A DNA stretch of 57,381 bases from Puia dinghuensis (GTDB lineage Bacteria; Bacteroidota; Bacteroidia; Chitinophagales; Chitinophagaceae), in NCBI GenBank assembly GCA_026225275.1, contig JAMFSL010000188.1, positions 1-57,381 of the forward strand, in the 5' to 3' direction. Below the pieces are notes generated by a model. The model was not told the origin of the DNA, ran no database searches, and worked only from the letters and a program-made list of their open reading frames with translations. The translations under genes and the position numbers were made by a program. Position 1 is the first letter of the stretch. Each line of letters opens with the position of its first letter. Below, piece after piece: positions 7,965 to 16,842 of the stretch.

Positions 7965-8648
7965 ATGAATAGCCTCGGCCGTCGCTTTGCCATCTGGTCC
8001 CTCTGTTTAATCACCACCCTGACTTCCCTCCGATTAGTCGCTCAAGTGAATAACCCACCTTTCTGGAATGATATAGCGGAATTCAAGCACCAGGACAGTC
8101 TACAGCATCCGCCTTCCGGAGCCATTCTTTTTGTAGGGAGCTCGTCTTTCCATAAATGGACCAATGTACAGAGTTATTTTCCAGGCTATTCAATCATCAA
8201 CCGGGGGTTTGGCGGATCCACCTTTCCGGACCTGATCCGTTATGCGGGAGAGATTATTTTTCCCTACCATCCACGGCAGATAGTTATTTATTGCGGTGAC
8301 AATGACCTGGCCGTTTCCGATTCTATAACGGCTACGATGGTATATAATCGTTTTGTCAGATTGTATAATCTTATCCGATCGAAGCTGAAAGATGTCGACA
8401 TCGTTTATGTGTCCATCAAGCCGAGTCCGAGCCGGCAAAAGCTGATGCCTAAAATGGAAGAGACCAACGATATGATCAGAAATTTTATGGCCAGTTATAG
8501 TCACGCCACTTTCGTGGACGTTTATCATGCCATGCTGACGCCACAGGGTCTGCCGATGGAAGATCTTTTTGTCGGAGACAAACTACACATGAATGAGAAG
8601 GGGTACAAGATCTGGCAACAGATACTTCAACCTTATCTTGATAAATAA
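7965..8648 (+). CDS. Secreted SGNH/GDSL-family hydrolase
   Basis: A 227-residue esterase or acetylhydrolase of the SGNH fold with an N-terminal signal peptide (hydrophobic 9-26, cleavage near VAQ). The four family blocks are visible: FVGSSSFHKW with the presumed nucleophile S60, the glycine of RGFGGSTF (about 83), the asparagine of GDNDLA (113), and the D205/H208 pair in GDKLHMNEKG. A promoter-like TAGCTTTG lies at 7944-7951 just upstream. It precedes the sugar cluster on the same strand by about 100 bp, so a role in glycan deacetylation is possible but not shown. Confidence 0.88.
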   Translation: MNSLGRRFAIWSLCLITTLTSLRLVAQVNNPPFWNDIAEFKHQDSLQHPPSGAILFVGSSSFHKWTNVQSYFPGYSIINRGFGGSTFPDLIRYAGEIIFPYHPRQIVIYCGDNDLAVSDSITATMVYNRFVRLYNLIRSKLKDVDIVYVSIKPSPSRQKLMPKMEETNDMIRNFMASYSHATFVDVYHAMLTPQGLPMEDLFVGDKLHMNEKGYKIWQQILQPYLDK

Positions 8649-8748: not shown

Positions 8749-9864
8749 ATGTCGAGAGAAACTACGTTTCGAAGGAAGAAGATCCTGTTCATCGTCGGAT
8801 CTCCTAACCAGACAAGTCAAATGCACCAGGTGGCATCCCTGCTACCCGAGTACGACACTTTCTTCAGCCAGATCTACAGCAAACATCCTATTATCCGGCG
8901 CGTGGTGCGACAGGGGTGGCTGGACAAGAGCATTTTTGCGGGGGAATTCAGGAGGAAGGCCGATGCCTATCTGGAACGGCATCATCTTCGAAATGACTAT
9001 GCACAGTCCATCTATCACAACCGCTATGACATGGCTGTGATCTGCACGGATCTGTTGATCACAAAGGAGTTAAGACAGTTGAAGACGGTATTTGTGCAGG
9101 AGGGTATGACAGATCCCGTTACGACCTGGGGGAAATTTACCCGTCGGCTGGGCCTGCCTTCTTACTGGGCCGCCAATACCGCTTTCAACGGGTGTAGCAA
9201 TATCTGCGATGTGTATTGTGCAGCTTCCGACGGCTATAAACAACAATTCAGCGGGTGGGGTACGGACCCTGAAAAGATATTTGTAACCGGCATTCCCAAT
9301 TATGATAATGCCGCTGCCTTGCTGCAGAATGATTTTCCGCACAAAGGATACGTGATGGCTGCGACGTCGGATATCCGGGAGACTTTAAGGAAGGAAGACA
9401 GGCCGGCCTTTATTCGTCACTGCGTTGACATTGCGGCCGGTCGCCCACTCCTCTTCAAACTTCATCCGAACGAGGAAAAGGAGCGCGCGATCCGTGAGAT
9501 CCAGGATGGAGCGCCTACGGGTACGCTGATTTTTACAGAAGGCAATACTGAGCAGATGATTGCCAATTGCACCGAACTGATCACCCAGTATTCTACCGTT
9601 GTGTATATCGGTATTGCCCTGGGAAAGAAGGTGCATTCTTATTTCGATGTAGAAAAGTTAAAGCGGCTTGCCCCGATACAGAATGGGAGCAGGTCTGCTA
9701 GCCACATCGCGGACCTTTGCCGCCGTTATCTGGAATTCAAAGGAACAAGAGAAGAATTTTTACGGACAGCACGGATCAACTCTATAAGCAGTACTCATGA
9801 GCGTGAAAGATCAGCACATCCTTACCATTATTCAGACCAGGAGGGGATCTACCCGACTGCCTGA
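8749..9864 (+). CDS. Putative GT-B-fold glycosyl/glycerophosphotransferase of surface glycan synthesis
   Basis: A 371-residue cytoplasmic protein with no signal peptide. Its second half resembles the CDP-glycerol glycerophosphotransferase and related GT-B families: LFKLHPNEEKE near 240, an acidic EGNTEQMI stretch, and TQYSTVVYIGIALGKKV, the usual nucleotide-donor region. I choose ATG 8749 rather than TTG 8740 as the start. It is the first gene of a same-strand block with a CMP-sugar synthetase and a NeuB-like synthase, which suggests it transfers the CMP-activated sugar made there. Its end overlaps the next gene by 68 bp, an unusually long overlap. A sugar-epimerase-like role cannot be excluded. 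Confidence 0.55.
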   Translation: MSRETTFRRKKILFIVGSPNQTSQMHQVASLLPEYDTFFSQIYSKHPIIRRVVRQGWLDKSIFAGEFRRKADAYLERHHLRNDYAQSIYHNRYDMAVICTDLLITKELRQLKTVFVQEGMTDPVTTWGKFTRRLGLPSYWAANTAFNGCSNICDVYCAASDGYKQQFSGWGTDPEKIFVTGIPNYDNAAALLQNDFPHKGYVMAATSDIRETLRKEDRPAFIRHCVDIAAGRPLLFKLHPNEEKERAIREIQDGAPTGTLIFTEGNTEQMIANCTELITQYSTVVYIGIALGKKVHSYFDVEKLKRLAPIQNGSRSASHIADLCRRYLEFKGTREEFLRTARINSISSTHERERSAHPYHYSDQEGIYPTA

Positions 9865-10618
9865 TAAGGTGTTGATGCCTTTGCAAGGCAAACCGCTCTT
9901 CGTCCGACAGGCAGAGCGGGTAAGGTCAGCCAGTCTCTGCGGGCGTGTTATCATCGCCACCACCACCACCGACAGCAACGATGATGTCATTGCCGAAGTC
10001 TGCCGGAATGAGGGACTCGACTGTTACCGCGGTCATGCCACCGATCTGCTGGACAGGCATTACCGGGCGGCGCTGCACTATACTGCGGACACCGTCATCA
10101 AGATTCCCAGTGATTGTCCCCTGATCGATCCCGCGTTGATCGACGAGGTCATCGGCTATTGGCTGGACCATGCCGGTGAATATGACTTTGTCAGCAACCT
10201 CCATCCCGCCACCTGGCCTGATGGTAACGATGTGGAGATCATGACCATGGACGTGCTGGAGACGGCCTGGCGTGAAGCGGTGCGCCCGTTGGAACGCGAG
10301 CATACTACACCTTATATATGGGAGCGGCCGGAGCGGTTTCGCATCGGTAATGTGGCCATGGGCGGAGGTGCGGATTATTCCATGACTCATCGATTCACCA
10401 TCGATTATATAGAGGATTACCATTTTATACGGGCAGTGTTTGACGAGTTATATCCGGCGAATTCAGCTTTTAGTGTCGGGGAAATTCTTGGGCTGTTGAA
10501 GAGACGCCCGGATATCTATGCTATGAATGCCGGTTTCGCGGGCGTTAACTGGTACAGGCATCATTTAAATGAATTGAAGACGGTCAGTGCTGATCAGACA
10601 AAAACGAATGCATTATGA
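9797..10618 (+). CDS. SpsF-type cytidylyltransferase (CMP-sugar synthetase)
   Basis: A 273-residue enzyme of the acylneuraminate/Kdo cytidylyltransferase superfamily, which activates a 2-keto-3-deoxy sugar acid with CTP. The nucleotide-binding signature is at the N-terminus (IIQTRRGSTRLPDKVL, residues 11-26), followed by KIPSDCPLIDP near 98, the metal-binding Asp region of this fold. It resembles the SpsF branch rather than NeuA or KdsB proper. The ATG at 9797 lies inside the preceding gene; its stop overlaps the next start in an ATGA. It presumably activates the product of the NeuB-like synthase encoded downstream. Confidence 0.85.
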   Translation: MSVKDQHILTIIQTRRGSTRLPDKVLMPLQGKPLFVRQAERVRSASLCGRVIIATTTTDSNDDVIAEVCRNEGLDCYRGHATDLLDRHYRAALHYTADTVIKIPSDCPLIDPALIDEVIGYWLDHAGEYDFVSNLHPATWPDGNDVEIMTMDVLETAWREAVRPLEREHTTPYIWERPERFRIGNVAMGGGADYSMTHRFTIDYIEDYHFIRAVFDELYPANSAFSVGEILGLLKRRPDIYAMNAGFAGVNWYRHHLNELKTVSADQTKTNAL

Positions 10619-11469
10619 CAAATGAACAATCGGCGGAACTACAATCAACCGCCTTACGGGTAAGAGAGCATATTATCCGCCTGTCTGCAGGCGGGGGCTG
10701 TTTTATCGGCGCATCCCTTTCCTGCGTTGAAATCATGGTCTATCTCTATACGCATGTTATCCGTCGGAATGCGGACAATCCGCATGATCCGAAGCGGGAC
10801 TATCTTTTCTTATCCAAGGGGCATGATGTGCCGGCGCTGTATGGCACCTTCGTCGAGATGGGCTGGCTGGCGGAGGAGCGGCTTTCGAACCATTTGTCTA
10901 CGCAGGACAGTATTTACTGGCATCCTAACCGTCAAATTCCTGGCGTTGAATTTCATTCCGGTTCGCTGGGACATCTTCCGGCGGTGGCGGCCGGGGTTGC
11001 GCTGGACTGCAAACTACGCGGCAGTAAGAACCGCGTGGTCGTGATCACGGGTGACGGGGAACTGAATGAGGGAAGTGTATGGGAGACCTTGCTGGTGGCT
11101 AATGCTTATGGGCTGGATAATTTGACGTTGGTGGTGGATAGAAATATGTTTCAGGCAAATATTCGTACGGAGGAGCTGGTTCCGCTGGAGCCGTTAGCCG
11201 ATAAGTTCAAAGCATTCGGCTGTGAGGTGCGGCGGATCGACGGGCATGATTATGAGCAGCTGGAAGAGGCGTTTGATGGGGGGGAAGAGAAAGGGAAAGT
11301 GAAGGTCATTATTGCAGATACCGTTCGCGGAAAAGGGCTGCCCAGCATCGAGGCCAGGGCCGATCGTTGGTTTTGTGCTTTTAGCGGGGATGAGGTGGCG
11401 CAATTGCTGGAAGAGCTGCATGGGAATAAAGAGGCTTCCATTGAATCCGAAACATTAGTTGTACGATAA
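10615..11469 (+). CDS. Transketolase, N-terminal (ThDP-binding) half
   Basis: A 284-residue protein equal to the N-terminal third of a transketolase, which transfers two-carbon ketol units between sugars. The thiamine-diphosphate motif begins GDGELNEG at 146-153 and ends at N177 (VVDRN), and the SKGH motif is at 67-70. It contains no pyrimidine-binding domain; that domain is in the next gene, 9 bp away, so the two subunits form a split enzyme. Split transketolases are known in special pathways such as synthesis of the antibiotic precursor AHBA. Here the neighbours (aminotransferase, NeuB-like synthase, cytidylyltransferase) suggest it builds a special sugar rather than serving the pentose phosphate pathway. 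Confidence 0.92.
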   Translation: MTNEQSAELQSTALRVREHIIRLSAGGGCFIGASLSCVEIMVYLYTHVIRRNADNPHDPKRDYLFLSKGHDVPALYGTFVEMGWLAEERLSNHLSTQDSIYWHPNRQIPGVEFHSGSLGHLPAVAAGVALDCKLRGSKNRVVVITGDGELNEGSVWETLLVANAYGLDNLTLVVDRNMFQANIRTEELVPLEPLADKFKAFGCEVRRIDGHDYEQLEEAFDGGEEKGKVKVIIADTVRGKGLPSIEARADRWFCAFSGDEVAQLLEELHGNKEASIESETLVVR

Positions 11470-11478
11470 TATTTTCTT

Positions 11479-12408
11479 ATGACTTACGAAGAGCTTTTGA
11501 CAGAGACGGCGCTAAAGGATGAACGCATCATTGTGATGACGGCTGAGAACAGGGCATTGGTGCGAAATCTTCCCAGGATATTGGGGGCGCGATTCGTCGA
11601 TACGGGCATCACCGAGCAGACGATGGTAGGCATGGCGGCGGGACTGGCACTGCGGGGACGGATTCCCATTGTGCATGCGCTGGCGCCTTTTCTGACTATG
11701 CGGGCCTTTGAATTCATCCGGACGGATGTCGGCATTGCCGGACTGCCGGTCAAACTCAGCGGATATATTCCAGGCTTTCTTTCCGATGGGAATGGACCTA
11801 CACACCAGGCCATCGAAGATATTGCGATCATGCGGGGCATCCCTGGTATGGAGGTATACAGTCCGGCAGACGAAGATGACAGCGTGAAGATGCTGCCTTC
11901 TATCTGGGCGGCGCCTGCTCCTGCTTATGTCCGGATCAATCACAAGAAAGGGACGTTTGTACATGCTCCCTATGAACCGGGCAAGGCAGAAGTGGTGGCC
12001 GAGGGTAAGGACCTGACGTTGTTGGTATATGGTTTTCTGTTCGACAATGCTCTGCAGGCCAGGACCTTGCTGGAAAAAGAAGGTCTTTCCGTCGGATTGG
12101 TGAATATGCGGTCGCTGAAGCCTGTGGATCAAGAGGCGATCGTGCGTGCTGCCCGCGGCTCGCGGCTGCTGGTGACCATCGAAGATCATCTGCAGACGGG
12201 CGGCTTGTATTCCATTGTAGCGGAGGTGCTGTTGCGTCACAGGCTGGCAGTCGCCGAAGTGCTGCCCCTGGCACTCGACGAACACTGGTTCCGGCCAGGA
12301 CTGCTGGGTCAGGTGCTGGAGACGGAAGGATTTACGCCGGTGGCAATAGCATCGCGGATCAAGCGGCACCTGGAATTTGATTTAAACTCACACATATATG
12401 TCCAATAA
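11479..12408 (+). CDS. Transketolase, C-terminal (pyrimidine-binding) half
   Basis: A 309-residue partner of the preceding N-terminal half. It has the Pyr domain with the cofactor-activating glutamate E46 in DTGITEQTMVGMAAGLA, then the transketolase C-terminal domain (about 185-300). Together the two genes give about 593 residues, close to one transketolase. The gene overlaps the next start by 11 bp, so translation is probably coupled. Confidence 0.92.
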   Translation: MTYEELLTETALKDERIIVMTAENRALVRNLPRILGARFVDTGITEQTMVGMAAGLALRGRIPIVHALAPFLTMRAFEFIRTDVGIAGLPVKLSGYIPGFLSDGNGPTHQAIEDIAIMRGIPGMEVYSPADEDDSVKMLPSIWAAPAPAYVRINHKKGTFVHAPYEPGKAEVVAEGKDLTLLVYGFLFDNALQARTLLEKEGLSVGLVNMRSLKPVDQEAIVRAARGSRLLVTIEDHLQTGGLYSIVAEVLLRHRLAVAEVLPLALDEHWFRPGLLGQVLETEGFTPVAIASRIKRHLEFDLNSHIYVQ

Positions 12409-13738
12409 AGTTGCATTCAACGAAAATTATCCGGTTATCACGGAGTCTGAAAAGCTTTACGAGCGCGCTTTGCCCATCATGACACCTGTGACACAGACCC
12501 TTGCCAAGGGGCCGGGTCAGTACGTCAAAGGCGTTGCGCCCAAGTACCTGAAAAGAGGAAAAGGCGCCCGGGTATGGGATGTGGATGGTAATGAATACCT
12601 GGATTACAATATGGGGATCGGTCCCTTGAGTCTGGGCTATGCCTATCCGAGGGTCGACGAAGCCATTATCGCTCAGCTGAAGGACGGCATCACTTTTTCG
12701 ATGATGCATGAACTGGAGGTGGAGCTGGCCGAGCTGGTTCACCAGGTGATCCCCAATGCAGAATCCATCCGGATCAGCAAGACCGGTGCGGATGTGACCA
12801 GTGCTGCCGTACGGGTAGCGAGGGCTTATACCGGCCGGAGTAAAGTACTGTGCTGCGGTTATCATGGCTGGCATGATTGGTATATCGCCGTCACCAGCCG
12901 CAACGCCGGGATACCTTCAGAAATAAAAGATCTGAGCGCTACGTTCGATTACAACAATATCGCCTCCGTGAAAGATGCGCTGGATGAGGATACTGCCTGT
13001 GTGATCCTCGAGCCTTTCGTCTTCGAAGCGCCGAAGGACAATTTTCTGCAAGAGCTAAAAGCACTGTGCGCTGCCAACGGTACGCTGCTGATCTTCGACG
13101 AAATGTGGACGGGTTTTCGGATCGCGGTAGGCGGTGCGCAGGAATATTTTGGGGTGACACCTGACCTGGCCTGTTATTCCAAAGCCTTCGCCAATGGAAT
13201 GCCCATCTCGCTGCTGACTGGTCGGAGGGATGTGATGGAGTTGTTTCAGGAGGAAGTGTTCTTCTTCACTACGTTTGGGGGCGAAGCCCTGTCTCTGGCA
13301 GCGGCTATTGCGACGATCCATGAGATGATGGAAAAAGATGTTCCCGGTTATCTGGCAGAAAAAGGAAAGCGGCTGAAAGACGGCTATAATATGCTGGCGG
13401 TGGAATTGGGTATTTCCGGCTATACCCGGTGTACAGGTTATGATTGCCGTTCGCTGGTCAGCTTTGATGCGACGGCGGGTAATCCCCTCGAATTGAAATC
13501 CTATGTGCAGCAGGAGATGATCAAAAGAGGCATCCTCTGGTCGGGTTTCCACAACATGAGTTTCAGCCATACAGATACTGATGTGGACTATACGCTGGCG
13601 GCCTATCGCGAGGTGCTGGGGCTGCTGAAGGATGCGGTATCGGCCGGAGATGTGGCGGCGAGGCTGAAAGGGACGCCGGTAGAAGCGGTATTCCGTAAGG
13701 TCAGTCAATTTAATATGAAACCGGTGGTCAGGTCGTGA
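12398..13738 (+). CDS. Class III PLP aminotransferase (glutamate-1-semialdehyde aminomutase-like)
   Basis: A 446-residue PLP enzyme of the class III family. The cofactor lysine is K262 in YSKAFANGMP, the PLP-ring aspartate is D234 in IFDEMWTGF, and CGYHGWHDWY near 153-162 matches the aromatic stacking region of glutamate-1-semialdehyde aminomutase. The sequence is close to that enzyme, but the context argues against haem synthesis: it sits between a split transketolase and SDR/NeuB-like genes. It probably aminates a keto-sugar or moves an amino group within one. Substrate unknown. Confidence 0.88.
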   Translation: MSNKVAFNENYPVITESEKLYERALPIMTPVTQTLAKGPGQYVKGVAPKYLKRGKGARVWDVDGNEYLDYNMGIGPLSLGYAYPRVDEAIIAQLKDGITFSMMHELEVELAELVHQVIPNAESIRISKTGADVTSAAVRVARAYTGRSKVLCCGYHGWHDWYIAVTSRNAGIPSEIKDLSATFDYNNIASVKDALDEDTACVILEPFVFEAPKDNFLQELKALCAANGTLLIFDEMWTGFRIAVGGAQEYFGVTPDLACYSKAFANGMPISLLTGRRDVMELFQEEVFFFTTFGGEALSLAAAIATIHEMMEKDVPGYLAEKGKRLKDGYNMLAVELGISGYTRCTGYDCRSLVSFDATAGNPLELKSYVQQEMIKRGILWSGFHNMSFSHTDTDVDYTLAAYREVLGLLKDAVSAGDVAARLKGTPVEAVFRKVSQFNMKPVVRS

Positions 13739-13795
13739 GACCGGGTGATCGATGAACACAAGATAGCTGGCGAACGAATGTAAATAACTGAATGC

Positions 13796-14599
13796 ATGGA
13801 TCTATTTTCATTAGCGGATAAGGTGGCGGTTGTCACCGGCGCCTGCGGGCTGTTGGGTACGCAACATTGCGAAGCGCTGGCTGCTGCTGGAGCTAAAGTA
13901 GTGGTGGCCGATCTGGATGAAGCGGCTGCGCAGCGGGTGGCCGATGGACTCGGGGAAGGACATTTGCCCATCAGGCTTGATGTAACCGATAAGGATTCCT
14001 TACAGGCGGCCCGGCAGCGGATATGGGCGACGTACGGGCGGATCGATGTGCTGGTTAATAATGCCGCCATCAACGATATGTTCGAAAATCCCCTGCTGGC
14101 GGCCGAGCAGTCGAGGTTCGAGTTGTATCCGCTGGAGATGTGGGATCGTTCATGGAAGGTGAATGTCAGCGGCGTCTTTTTATGTTCGCAGGTGCTGGGC
14201 GGCGTCATGGCCGAGCAGGGCGGAGGCAGCATCATCAATATCGCTTCCACTTACGGTATGGTAGCTCCCGACCAGACCATTTACCGGGATGCAGACGGGA
14301 AGCAAACCTTCTATAAATCCCCGGCGTACCCCGTAACAAAATCGGCGGTCATCGGATTTACCAAATTCCTTGCCTCCTATTGGGGGCATAGAAATGTCAG
14401 GGTCAATTCGCTGTCACCCGGTGGAGTAGAGAATGGGCAGGATGTTTTCTTCAGGAGCAATTATTCCAACAAGACTTTATTGGGCCGGATGGCAGCGCCT
14501 TCGGATTATAAGGGGGCGATTGTCTTTTTGGCGAGTGAGGCGTCGGCCTATATGACAGGAGCGAATCTTGTCGTAGATGGGGGATGGACAGCTATATGA
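13796..14599 (+). CDS. SDR-family oxidoreductase of the sugar cluster
   Basis: A 267-residue classical short-chain dehydrogenase. Visible are the Rossmann motif TGACGLLG (15-22), D39 after the second strand (VADLDEA, favouring NAD), NNAA near 85-90, the catalytic serine region NIASTYG and the YPVTK active-site pair near 179-183. The C-terminal GANLVVDGGW is typical of the family. It resembles SDRs found with NeuB-like synthases in surface-sugar loci. It probably oxidises or reduces an intermediate of the cluster. Confidence 0.88.
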   Translation: MDLFSLADKVAVVTGACGLLGTQHCEALAAAGAKVVVADLDEAAAQRVADGLGEGHLPIRLDVTDKDSLQAARQRIWATYGRIDVLVNNAAINDMFENPLLAAEQSRFELYPLEMWDRSWKVNVSGVFLCSQVLGGVMAEQGGGSIINIASTYGMVAPDQTIYRDADGKQTFYKSPAYPVTKSAVIGFTKFLASYWGHRNVRVNSLSPGGVENGQDVFFRSNYSNKTLLGRMAAPSDYKGAIVFLASEASAYMTGANLVVDGGWTAI

Positions 14600-14631
14600 T
14601 CTATTAACCTTCATACTAAAAATTGACATCT

Positions 14632-15573
14632 ATGAACACGACGATTCAGGAACAAGTAAATGCCACCGGCGCGATCCCCCGCAAGGCTTTTCGAGTCAGC
14701 CCGGTAAGAAGTATCGGCGCCGGTCATCCGGTGTACATTATTGCCGAGATCGGGATCAATCATAACGGATCTCTCGAGATTGCCAAAAAGCTGATCGACG
14801 AAGCCGTTCAGGCTGGTTGTGATGCTGTCAAATTTCAAAAGCGGACGCCGGAGCTTTGCACACCCAAGGATCAATGGCATCTGGAGCGTGACACGCCCTG
14901 GGGTCGGATGACGTATATCAATTACCGGAAGATGATCGAAATGGGTTATGAAGAGTATGCTACTATCGATGCGTACTGCCGTGAGAAGGGCATTGACTGG
15001 TTCGTCAGCTGTTGGGATGAAGCGTCAGTGGATTTTATGGAGCAGTTCAATCCCGGGGTCTATAAATTTGCCAGCGCTTCCCTGACCGATCATGCGTTGA
15101 TAGAAAAGGTGAGGCAGACCGACAAACCGTATATTCTGTCTACTGGCATGTCGACCATGGATGAAATCTTCGCGGCTGTAAGTAAATTCGGCACCGATCA
15201 GCTGATGGTCGCGCATTCTACATCCGCCTATCCCTGTCCTCCGCAGGAACTCAATCTGCGGATGATCGATACGCTGGGAGAGCTTTTCCCGGAAACACCG
15301 ATCGGCTATTCCGGTCATGAGACTGGGCTGGCTACGACAGTGGCTGCGGTGGCGATGGGCGCCTGTTTCGTGGAAAGACATTTTACGCTGGACAGGGCCA
15401 TGTGGGGATCCGATCATGCTGCCAGTGTAGAGCCACAGGGCATGCAGAAGCTGGTGAGGGATATCCGGGATGTGGAGCAATCGATGGGCGACGGTATCAA
15501 ACGGGTATATGAGAGTGAACTGGGGGCCATGCGGCGGTTGAGAAGGACTCGTTCTGCGGAGGCGATGGTATGA
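14632..15573 (+). CDS. NeuB/SpsE-like ulosonic acid synthase lacking the SAF domain
   Basis: A 313-residue TIM-barrel enzyme of the N-acetylneuraminate synthase family, which condenses phosphoenolpyruvate with an aldose to give a 2-keto-3-deoxy sugar acid. Family motifs: AEIGINHNGS (38-47), DAVKFQKRTP, YKFASASLTDH, STGMST, IGYSGHETG and the metal-region ERHFTLDR. NeuB proper is about 340-350 residues with a C-terminal SAF (antifreeze-like) domain that caps the neighbouring active site; this protein ends right after the barrel (about GAMRRLRRTR). ATG 14632 is preferred over TTG 14623. The stop overlaps the next start by 4 bp. Confidence 0.9.
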   Translation: MNTTIQEQVNATGAIPRKAFRVSPVRSIGAGHPVYIIAEIGINHNGSLEIAKKLIDEAVQAGCDAVKFQKRTPELCTPKDQWHLERDTPWGRMTYINYRKMIEMGYEEYATIDAYCREKGIDWFVSCWDEASVDFMEQFNPGVYKFASASLTDHALIEKVRQTDKPYILSTGMSTMDEIFAAVSKFGTDQLMVAHSTSAYPCPPQELNLRMIDTLGELFPETPIGYSGHETGLATTVAAVAMGACFVERHFTLDRAMWGSDHAASVEPQGMQKLVRDIRDVEQSMGDGIKRVYESELGAMRRLRRTRSAEAMV

Positions 15574-16466
15574 TGCAAACGATCGTTTATTATACTACGG
15601 GCATCCTGGTGCTCAGCGTATTCATCTTCGTCTGGCTGGAGCGTAAATTTCCCTACACCAAAGGGATGCCCATCTTCCGGGACGGTTTTTGGGTAGACCT
15701 GATATGGTATACCTTCATTCAGAGTTATTTCCTGAAGATCTTCATCTTCGACTATATCATCATGCCGCTGGACCGGACCTGGCATCTGTCCTCCCTGCAC
15801 CTGGTCAGTTCGTGGCCGGTGGCTGTGCAGGTGCTGTTCTTCCTGGTGATACATGATTTTTACATTTATTGGTTTCACCGGGCGCAGCATAGCTCCAAGT
15901 TATTATGGCGGACGCATGAGGCTCATCATTCCAACAAGGAGGTAGACTGGCTGGCGGGCACGCGTTCGCATTCGCTGGAGATACTGATCAACCAGACCGT
16001 GGAATTTGCACCTATCGTTCTTTTAGGGGCCGATCCGGTCGTCGTACCGATCAAGGCGCTACTCGATGCCGTATGGGGCATGTATATACATTCCAATATC
16101 AATGTCCGGTCGGGCAAGTTGCAGTATTTTATCAACGGGCCGGAGATGCATCAGTGGCATCATTCCAATGACAGGGCTGTTTTCTATGCCAATTATTCCA
16201 CTAAATTCGCGGTATGGGATTGGCTGTTCGGAACCGCTTATCTGCCCCGGGACAGGAAGCCGGATGAGTTCGGCCTTCCTTATGATTATCCCAGGGATTA
16301 TTTTCTACAGCATTTCTTTGCGATCAGAAGGGTGGATGAGAAGAAGCTGGCGGCGAAGTATCCCTGGTTCAAGGCGTATCATTTTTCCCGGCAGGGGATC
16401 ACGGAGTGGGCGAAGAGGAGGTGGAGTAAAGGTAGGGAAGGCATGGAATCTGCAATTGAGAATTAA
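15570..16466 (+). CDS. Sterol desaturase / fatty acid hydroxylase superfamily membrane protein
   Basis: A 298-residue membrane enzyme with di-iron histidine boxes: H95 and H103 in IHDFYIYWFHR, H116/H119/H120 in THEAHHS, H174, and H194/H197/H198 in MHQWHHS. Hydrophobic segments at about 5-22, 42-65 and 80-100 place it in the inner membrane. This superfamily inserts hydroxyl groups or double bonds into lipid chains. It is translationally coupled (ATGA) to the NeuB-like gene, so it may modify the lipid carrier or the lipid to which the sugar is attached; that link is inference. Confidence 0.87.
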   Translation: MMQTIVYYTTGILVLSVFIFVWLERKFPYTKGMPIFRDGFWVDLIWYTFIQSYFLKIFIFDYIIMPLDRTWHLSSLHLVSSWPVAVQVLFFLVIHDFYIYWFHRAQHSSKLLWRTHEAHHSNKEVDWLAGTRSHSLEILINQTVEFAPIVLLGADPVVVPIKALLDAVWGMYIHSNINVRSGKLQYFINGPEMHQWHHSNDRAVFYANYSTKFAVWDWLFGTAYLPRDRKPDEFGLPYDYPRDYFLQHFFAIRRVDEKKLAAKYPWFKAYHFSRQGITEWAKRRWSKGREGMESAIEN

Positions 16467-16476
16467 ATTCATCGTC

Positions 16477-16842
16477 ATGGCGTGGGTGTATCTGATCATC
16501 GCGGCCGTCTTCGAGATGGCCTGGACGTTTTCCTTACGATTTATGAATGTGAAAAGGCTGAGGGCCCTTCACTGGAAAGCTTTTTTCACCCAGCCCGGTA
16601 ACTGGGCGATCGTTTGGCCTTTTATCGGTTATATTTTGTTTGGCCTGGGGAATGTGTATTGTATTTCCGTTGCCATGAAGGAGATTCCGGCTTCTACGTG
16701 CCTTGCGGTGTGGATGGGGACGGCGCTGGTGGGGGTTAAGTTGGTGGAGATCATTTTCCTCAAGGGGAGTTATGATGTCTATCAATTTATTTATATAGGG
16801 TTGATCCTGGTTGGAGTAGTGGGGTTGAGGAAGAATCCGTGA
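16477..16842 (+). CDS. Small multidrug resistance (SMR) family transporter
   Basis: A 121-residue four-helix inner-membrane protein of the SMR family. The essential membrane-embedded glutamate is E13 in AAVFEMAW, and FLKGSYDVYQ ahead of the last helix is typical. The FEMAW pattern resembles SugE/Gdx guanidinium exporters more than EmrE. The protein is about 15 residues longer than usual because of a loop (NVKRLRALHWKAFFTQ) after helix 1. The ATG at 16477 is 10 bp after the stop of the hydroxylase-like gene. It could be the last gene of the sugar operon or an unrelated addition. Confidence 0.85.
   Translation: MAWVYLIIAAVFEMAWTFSLRFMNVKRLRALHWKAFFTQPGNWAIVWPFIGYILFGLGNVYCISVAMKEIPASTCLAVWMGTALVGVKLVEIIFLKGSYDVYQFIYIGLILVGVVGLRKNP

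Follow-up and report, generated by a model that had tools for sequence, protein, structure and literature searches.

The window analysed here is a whole stretch of 57,381 nucleotides from Puia dinghuensis (contig JAMFSL010000188.1 of assembly GCA_026225275.1), and our subject is an operon on its + strand that combines a NeuB-family synthase with a split transketolase-like enzyme, an aminotransferase and a fatty-acid-hydroxylase-type enzyme. The original prediction described eight tightly spaced same-strand genes, and the open reading frames at 8749-16466, with inter-gene overlaps or gaps of -68, -4, 9, -11, 57, 32 and -4 bp, agree with it, as do the functions assigned by Pfam and NCBIfam. The operon begins with a GT-B-fold protein, presumably a CMP-ulosonate glycosyltransferase (GT; 8749-9864), and a SpsF/KdsB-type cytidylyltransferase (SpsF; 9797-10618; CTP_transf_3, 2.8e-24; cytidylyltransferase of PDB 6oew, 2.3e-37). 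The next two genes encode the N half (10615-11469; Transketolase_N, 1.9e-21) and the C half (11479-12408; Transket_pyr, 2e-24; Transketolase_C, 2.4e-20) of a transketolase-like thiamine diphosphate (ThDP) enzyme (TK), followed by a PRK06209-like class III aminotransferase (AT; 12398-13738; Aminotran_3, 4e-48) and a short-chain dehydrogenase (SDR; 13796-14599; adh_short_C2, 1.7e-47). A 32-bp spacer (14600-14631) separates the SDR gene from that of the NeuB synthase (14632-15573, with an alternative TTG start at 14623; NeuB, PF03102, 2e-78), after which comes the fatty-acid-hydroxylase-type membrane enzyme (FAH; 15570-16466; FA_hydroxylase, 3.8e-30). A ninth gene, 10 bp after the hydroxylase, encodes a 121-residue membrane protein of the small multidrug resistance (SMR) type (full frame 16477-16842; Multi_Drug_Res, 1.9e-9 when scored from an inner start), a possible glycolipid flippase. 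This gene was overlooked in the original prediction, as were the lack of a SAF domain in NeuB and the KdsC-type phosphatase gene that, by synteny, occupies the site of the 32-bp spacer in many relatives.

The locus is real and conserved. Species genomes were scanned with an alignment of eight NeuB sequences; among the best 80 of 579 relatives, 57 loci were counted, the other 23 being left out since their contigs ended near NeuB. Gene presence was scored by tblastn thresholds, and absence means not detected. Alongside NeuB (57), these NeuB-centred loci contain GT (43), SpsF (43), each TK half (38), AT (43), SDR (44), a KdsC/HAD-type phosphatase (HAD; 52), FAH (39) and SMR (26). The order GT-SpsF-TKN-TKC-AT-SDR-HAD-NeuB-FAH-SMR, with TKN and TKC denoting the TK halves, is found in whole or in part in Bacteroidota, Ignavibacteriota, Chloroflexota and Myxococcota, and a Methylomagnum plasmid carries GT to NeuB and then HAD. 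Because this gene order is shared by loci of five phyla (NCBI names), the locus represents more than chance. A second sample was drawn by the TK N half, since the first had been selected by NeuB. Of 395 genomes of this phylum, 40, counting that of the window, carry the TK N half at an identity of at least 58% (next match, 44%), and 38 of the 40 were fetched, leaving out the window's own and G485, in which the match lies in pieces. Four of the 38 TK-centred loci are also contigs of the NeuB-centred sample. GT, SpsF, both TK halves, AT, SDR and NeuB occur together in 31 of the 38 loci, and the counts for single genes are 36 for AT, 23 for HAD, 26 for FAH and 6 for SMR. In the other seven loci, TK is accompanied by varying subsets of AT, SpsF and GT or by none of them, and NeuB was not found at the locus, to which the search was confined. 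Among them, L265, L266 and L261 have TK with or without AT, and L254 and L260 the TK halves alone, all with neighbours that by eye are of housekeeping or dienelactone-hydrolase type. L272 and L277 carry GT-SpsF-TKN-TKC-AT with neither SDR nor NeuB at the locus, and by eye a flippase-like membrane gene lies 5' of GT and an acyl-CoA-synthetase-like gene nearby. In the open-access full-text literature, no paper was found on the operon's enzyme combinations (transketolase with NeuB, SpsF or class III aminotransferase), and the gene set does not appear in the table of a legionaminate paper.

The NeuB synthase belongs to a subfamily of its own. The SAF domain is lacking in all six members scanned (the window's and five others) and present in all three canonical controls, and the motif KFQKRTPE occurs in 79 of 81 members, with KFQKRSPE in one and the remaining row shortened to 8 residues in extraction. 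In a tree of 103 sequences, the SAF-less subfamily stands apart from the 23 canonical rows, themselves joined by long branches, with support of 99/98. NeuBs from Chlorobi (10) and Streptomyces (4) are nested among the operon-type rows, with support of 99/96 for Chlorobi and of 97/79, slightly below the support mark, for Streptomyces. A phosphatase is the only operon-type companion of the subfamily NeuB in eight fully seen Chlorobi loci and four Streptomyces loci, and no operon-type AT or TK was found in the four Chlorobi and two Streptomyces genomes searched, that of L124 being left out. Members of the subfamily can thus function in the absence of AT and TK. Of the 293 columns of the NeuB alignment, 108 are occupied by the same residue in all four groups compared, at a frequency of 90% or more within each.

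What is the substrate of this synthase? The Streptomyces NeuBs are 63-65% identical to that of the window, the one scanned has no SAF domain, and the four loci, read by eye, combine NeuB with a cytidylyltransferase-HAD fusion and have no epimerase in the stretch read. The genes of the Streptomyces NeuB locus presumably serve a wall polymer of teichulosonic or 2-keto-3-deoxynonulosonic acid (Kdn). Kdn is described as present in Streptomyces walls (PMC11481543, PMC7831098) and as formed from mannose-6-phosphate and phosphoenolpyruvate (PEP) (PMC7845648). Together with the Streptomyces loci and the ManA encoded in the host genome, these reports point to a Kdn-type product, and we consider NeuB a probable Kdn-9-phosphate synthase whose substrate is probably mannose-6-phosphate. 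Such a substrate would make a hexosamine epimerase unneeded. The lack of this epimerase, to which the original prediction had drawn attention, holds for all nine genes, among which a Pfam/NCBIfam scan found neither a NeuC/LegG-type epimerase nor a dehydratase beside NeuB. The operon copy is the single NeuB in the host genome (6.59 Mb, 99.9% complete, with the window as contig 296), and the genome's sole Epimerase_2 (PF02350) protein is encoded on another contig beside genes that, read by eye, encode an oxidoreductase of the WbpB kind and a glycosyltransferase. For the missing epimerase, a Kdn-type route that starts from mannose-6-phosphate would be the simpler explanation. A more distant NeuB, 45% identical to the window's, is encoded on an Azospirillum thermophilum plasmid (L222) with a HAD-type protein, beside genes annotated as LegB, a LegC-type aminotransferase and NeuC.

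The phosphatase of the relatives suggests that the product of the NeuB synthase is phosphorylated. In many relatives, such as Taibaiella and Mucilaginibacter, it precedes NeuB or forms the N-terminal part of a fusion with it. Phosphatase and NeuB form one chain of 473-563 residues in L058, L078, L079, L082, L083, L090, L100, L101, L104, L106, L109 and L039-L041. The best model for all four phosphatases scanned is the KDN-9-P phosphatase, at 147.8-157.7 bits and below its cut-off of 180, and the same four exceed the cut-off of the KdsC family. The window itself has no phosphatase match at an E-value of 1, and none was detected in five of the 57 NeuB-centred loci or in eight others among the 31 complete TK-centred loci. 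The host genome encodes a KdsC-family protein that shares 32% identity with the operon-type phosphatase and a second KdsC-like gene, in two pieces, that is 48-54% identical to the operon type. The two pieces lie at the end of contig C242 and the start of contig C334 of the genome (G000), their readings share 41 residues, and the interruption is probably an assembly break.

What is most puzzling about the locus is its ThDP/AT/SDR module. The TK has a Transketolase_N domain, the ThDP-binding N half, and keeps the catalytic Glu in all 42 family rows, together with the His residues of the HP and THQ motifs. Other residues are changed. At the His position of the GHPG motif, 39 of 41 family rows have Phe, with two gaps, and all seven control TKs have His; where the three nearest controls carry a second His next to Trp, 40 of 41 rows show Phe and one shows Tyr; and the D469-type Asp, found in four of the seven controls, is Asn in 42 of 42 rows. 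In a study of the Escherichia coli transketolase, H26 and H261 bound aldehydes in docking, S385 touches the substrate phosphate, and the D469T/R520Q/S385Y variant has its acceptors shifted to aliphatic and aromatic aldehydes (PMC5073344). The AT, for which PRK06209 is the best NCBIfam model (384.5 bits; cut-off, 486), is missing nine of the 11 positions of the gating loop of glutamate-1-semialdehyde aminomutase (GSAM) in all 54 rows, the other two being filled, whereas all 11 are filled in seven of seven HemL controls. The best NCBIfam model for the SDR is PRK09186 (175 bits; cut-off, 255), which we presume to be linked with the flagellin-modification protein PtmA. The replacement of the GHPG His by Phe and the loss of the gating loop make it more likely that TK and AT produce a separate amine, and two-carbon transfer followed by transamination to an amino alcohol would be the simplest chemistry for the pair.

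In addition, several genes in and around the operon point to lipids. The sole NCBIfam match of the FAH is OlsE, weak at 107 bits against a cut-off of 475. An OlsF-like gene adjoins the operon in seven distinct loci (L076, which equals L257, L084, L123, L247, L252, L263 and L269), and LplT-, OlsB- and OlsA-like genes lie near the Methylomagnum operon. A GNAT-type gene, which we take to resemble a ceramide synthase, directly follows NeuB in L065, L069 and L093, two of which belong to Chloroflexota classes by title, and an LPG_synthase_TM-like gene lies 5' of GT in L099, L113 and L064. Among the window's nine genes, there is no OlsB/OlsA or OlsF acyltransferase, the search with OlsB/OlsA models having been confined to these genes. 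An SGNH/GDSL hydrolase gene 5' of GT (7965-8648, + strand; Lipase_GDSL_2, 6.8e-15) is possibly associated with the operon by synteny, given that the three nearest relatives (L045-L047, at 60-69% identity) have it in the same place, and it may act on acyl groups of the operon product. Furthermore, a gene clustering of 81 loci yielded no family in at least five loci that was recognised by eye as belonging to glycan or polysaccharide synthesis. Taken together, these observations favour a lipid with one sugar.

We tentatively propose, at somewhat less than an even chance, that the operon comprises two modules, one for a Kdn-type CMP-sugar and one for a separate amine, whose products are joined as a glycosylated aminolipid. 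The gene content, synteny, domain losses and residue changes are observed, and from them we infer the substrates, the joining of the two modules and the lipid product. Module 1 would consist of NeuB, SpsF and GT, with the KdsC-type phosphatase in many relatives, and would convert mannose-6-phosphate and PEP via the 9-phosphate route into a CMP-activated Kdn-type nonulosonic acid, which is then transferred; in the host, the phosphatase step would be supplied by a protein encoded elsewhere in the genome. Module 2, comprising the split ThDP enzyme, the class III AT and the SDR, would provide the amine. The ThDP enzyme would add a two-carbon unit to an aldehyde, probably no ordinary sugar phosphate, and the AT would aminate the resulting hydroxyketone. 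The amine may then be acylated and hydroxylated by the OlsE-like FAH to an aminolipid, which GT would glycosylate and the SMR protein (in relatives, LplT or LPG_synthase_TM-type proteins) would move across the membrane. A more specific version, which we regard as rather improbable, is a new glycolipid class in which a Kdn-type nonulosonic acid is carried by a sphingoid-like amino alcohol made without serine palmitoyltransferase, through ketol transfer to a long-chain aldehyde, C2 transamination, N-acylation and hydroxylation. A search of the genome for serine palmitoyltransferase with an alpha-oxoamine-synthase-type model gave four matches, three of them strong and none above the cut-off.

Several observations weigh against the two-module proposal. 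In the TK, the placement of the second His varies with the alignment used, a gap-free one putting Trp there; the D469-type Asp is also lacking in three of the seven controls; the R520-type phosphate-contacting Arg is kept in 42 of 42 rows; and the S385- and H461-type columns are not confidently placed in the alignment (the E. coli numbering of the R358, H461, H100 and H473 positions is assumed). Given the retained Arg, the unplaced S385 and H461 columns and the controls without Asp, the substrate may be phosphorylated. The R358-type Arg is not conserved. Likewise, at the column of the Arg in the GSAM motif NSPVRAF, the AT has Lys in 53 of 54 rows, with one gap, and the seven controls have Arg, so that a carboxylate substrate is possible; the GSAM residue roles, including that of this Arg as a carboxylate contact, are presumed. 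Five fully seen loci of the 57 keep GT, SpsF, AT, SDR, HAD, NeuB and FAH without TK, and no operon-type TK was found elsewhere in their genomes, which indicates that the ThDP enzyme is not always needed. On the sugar side, the predicted mannose-6-phosphate substrate draws on kinship and neighbours, the TK-operon NeuBs are set apart from those of Chlorobi at 6 columns and from those of Streptomyces at 11, and operon-type SpsF was not found in seven Chlorobi genomes searched (best match, 37%). On the lipid side, OlsF adjoins the operon in a minority of loci, in the host genome OlsF finds no match and the relatives' GNAT just one at 23% identity, a number of complete operons lack FAH (L065, L069, L093 and L096 among them), and the operon has no obvious enzyme for making a fatty aldehyde.

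How else could the two sets of genes be related? The SDR, the AT and, where present, the ThDP enzyme might modify the nonulosonic acid itself, for instance by turning Kdn into an amino-Kdn through oxidation and amination or by lengthening its chain, with the amine acylated afterwards. We judge this unlikely, yet a real contender: the TK-less loci retain AT and SDR, which is compatible with a pair that first oxidises and then aminates, acyltransferase-type genes adjoin some operons, and PRK09186, with its presumed PtmA link, is the best model for the SDR. However, with Phe in place of His residues that contact the substrate in E. coli TK, the ThDP enzyme would fit a polyol less well. The original prediction instead had TK and AT produce an amino-aldose, to be condensed with PEP by NeuB, in a logic like that of the 3-amino-5-hydroxybenzoic acid (AHBA) pathways, which act on amino sugars and include split transketolases, and it expected an unusual CMP-ulosonate for a surface glycan or glycolipid. 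A CMP-ulosonate pathway without a hexosamine epimerase, perhaps leading to a glycolipid, is supported in outline, but the predicted substrate route through TK and AT is not favoured and appears quite improbable. The genes are adjacent and co-directional, AHBA pathways offer a precedent for split transketolases, and the few columns that distinguish TK-operon NeuBs from those of Chlorobi and Streptomyces make a changed substrate possible; against this, Chlorobi and Streptomyces have the subfamily NeuB with a phosphatase but neither AT nor TK of the operon type, AT and SDR persist in five loci without TK, and the TK residues are altered. It is very unlikely that the locus serves an ordinary Kdn or nonulosonate decoration of capsule or lipopolysaccharide with TK, AT and SDR as unrelated passengers. 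NeuB, SpsF, GT and a phosphatase would be enough for a Kdn glycan, but the three supposed passengers lie between SpsF and NeuB in five phyla with family-wide residue changes, and polysaccharide-synthesis families do not recur by eye in at least five of the 81 loci.

A further alternative, highly improbable in our view, holds that gene 1 is a diverged UDP-sugar 2-epimerase, so that the hexosamine epimerase would be present after all. Gene 1 has no Pfam match at 1e-3, and its AlphaFold2 model (pLDDT, 88.6) adopts the GT-B fold. The nearest folds in Foldseek are UDP-GlcNAc 2-epimerases (TM-score of about 0.5-0.56), and Epimerase_2 matches weakly in 39 of 43 family members (best, 5.5e-07). However, TagF is also among the fold matches, Glyphos_transf weakly matches 30 of the 43 members (best, 1.2e-07), the presumed catalytic His of the epimerases is, in our reading, not conserved, and the pathway phosphatase fits a phosphorylated substrate. 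A profile comparison with the genome's own epimerase was weak (15.7% probability, E 0.0017, 78 columns). Q-E-G, H-P and S282 are invariant in all 43 rows, and they resemble motifs of bacterial sialyltransferases. On fold, Pfam and profile comparison, a hidden epimerase was judged unlikely, and we assign gene 1 as a putative transferase with moderate confidence.

The two-module proposal would have consequences beyond the window. Roughly a tenth of the genomes sampled in the window's phylum (40/395) carry an operon-type TK half, and the operon occurs in at least three other phyla, namely Chloroflexota, Myxococcota and Pseudomonadota. If the proposal is true, Kdn-type sugars would have a wide role in environmental bacteria, the ThDP enzyme would be a transketolase re-specialised in nature and thereby of interest for making C-C bonds, and module 2 would possibly provide a new route to amino-alcohol lipids.

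The operon resembles several known systems in part. Like the KDN pathway, in which mannose-6-phosphate is processed by KDN-9-P synthase, a phosphatase and a CMP transferase, it has a NeuB-family synthase, a CMP transferase, no hexosamine epimerase and, in relatives, a neighbour similar to KdsC or KDN-9-P phosphatase; it differs in the added ThDP enzyme, class III AT, SDR, FAH and SMR, in the lack of a phosphatase in the window and in a substrate that is so far a prediction. The Streptomyces NeuB locus shares the closely related SAF-less synthase and a HAD domain within its cytidylyltransferase fusion, whereas neither of the two genomes searched contains an operon-type TK or AT and the locus has other transferases. 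Neu5Ac, legionaminate and pseudaminate pathways differ from the operon, which has no dedicated hexosamine epimerase or dehydratase beside NeuB, and canonical NeuB, the sialate synthase, differs in its C-terminal SAF domain. The split transketolase of Carboxydothermus hydrogenoformans (PDB 6yaj/6yak) has the same two-chain layout (N half, 6.5e-47; C half, 2.6e-46), but in the operon family the GHPG His has given way to Phe. In the AHBA pathway, too, a split transketolase is accompanied by an aminotransferase and an aldol-type PEP enzyme; in the operon, however, the PEP enzyme is of the NeuB type and is found without TK in other phyla, and no AHBA synthase is encoded among the nine genes, to which that search was confined. 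Finally, the ornithine/glycine lipid system (OlsB/OlsA, OlsF and OlsE) is matched by the weakly OlsE-like hydroxylase and by the OlsF- or OlsB/OlsA-like genes beside some relatives, whereas the window operon has no such acyltransferase and its genome no OlsF match.

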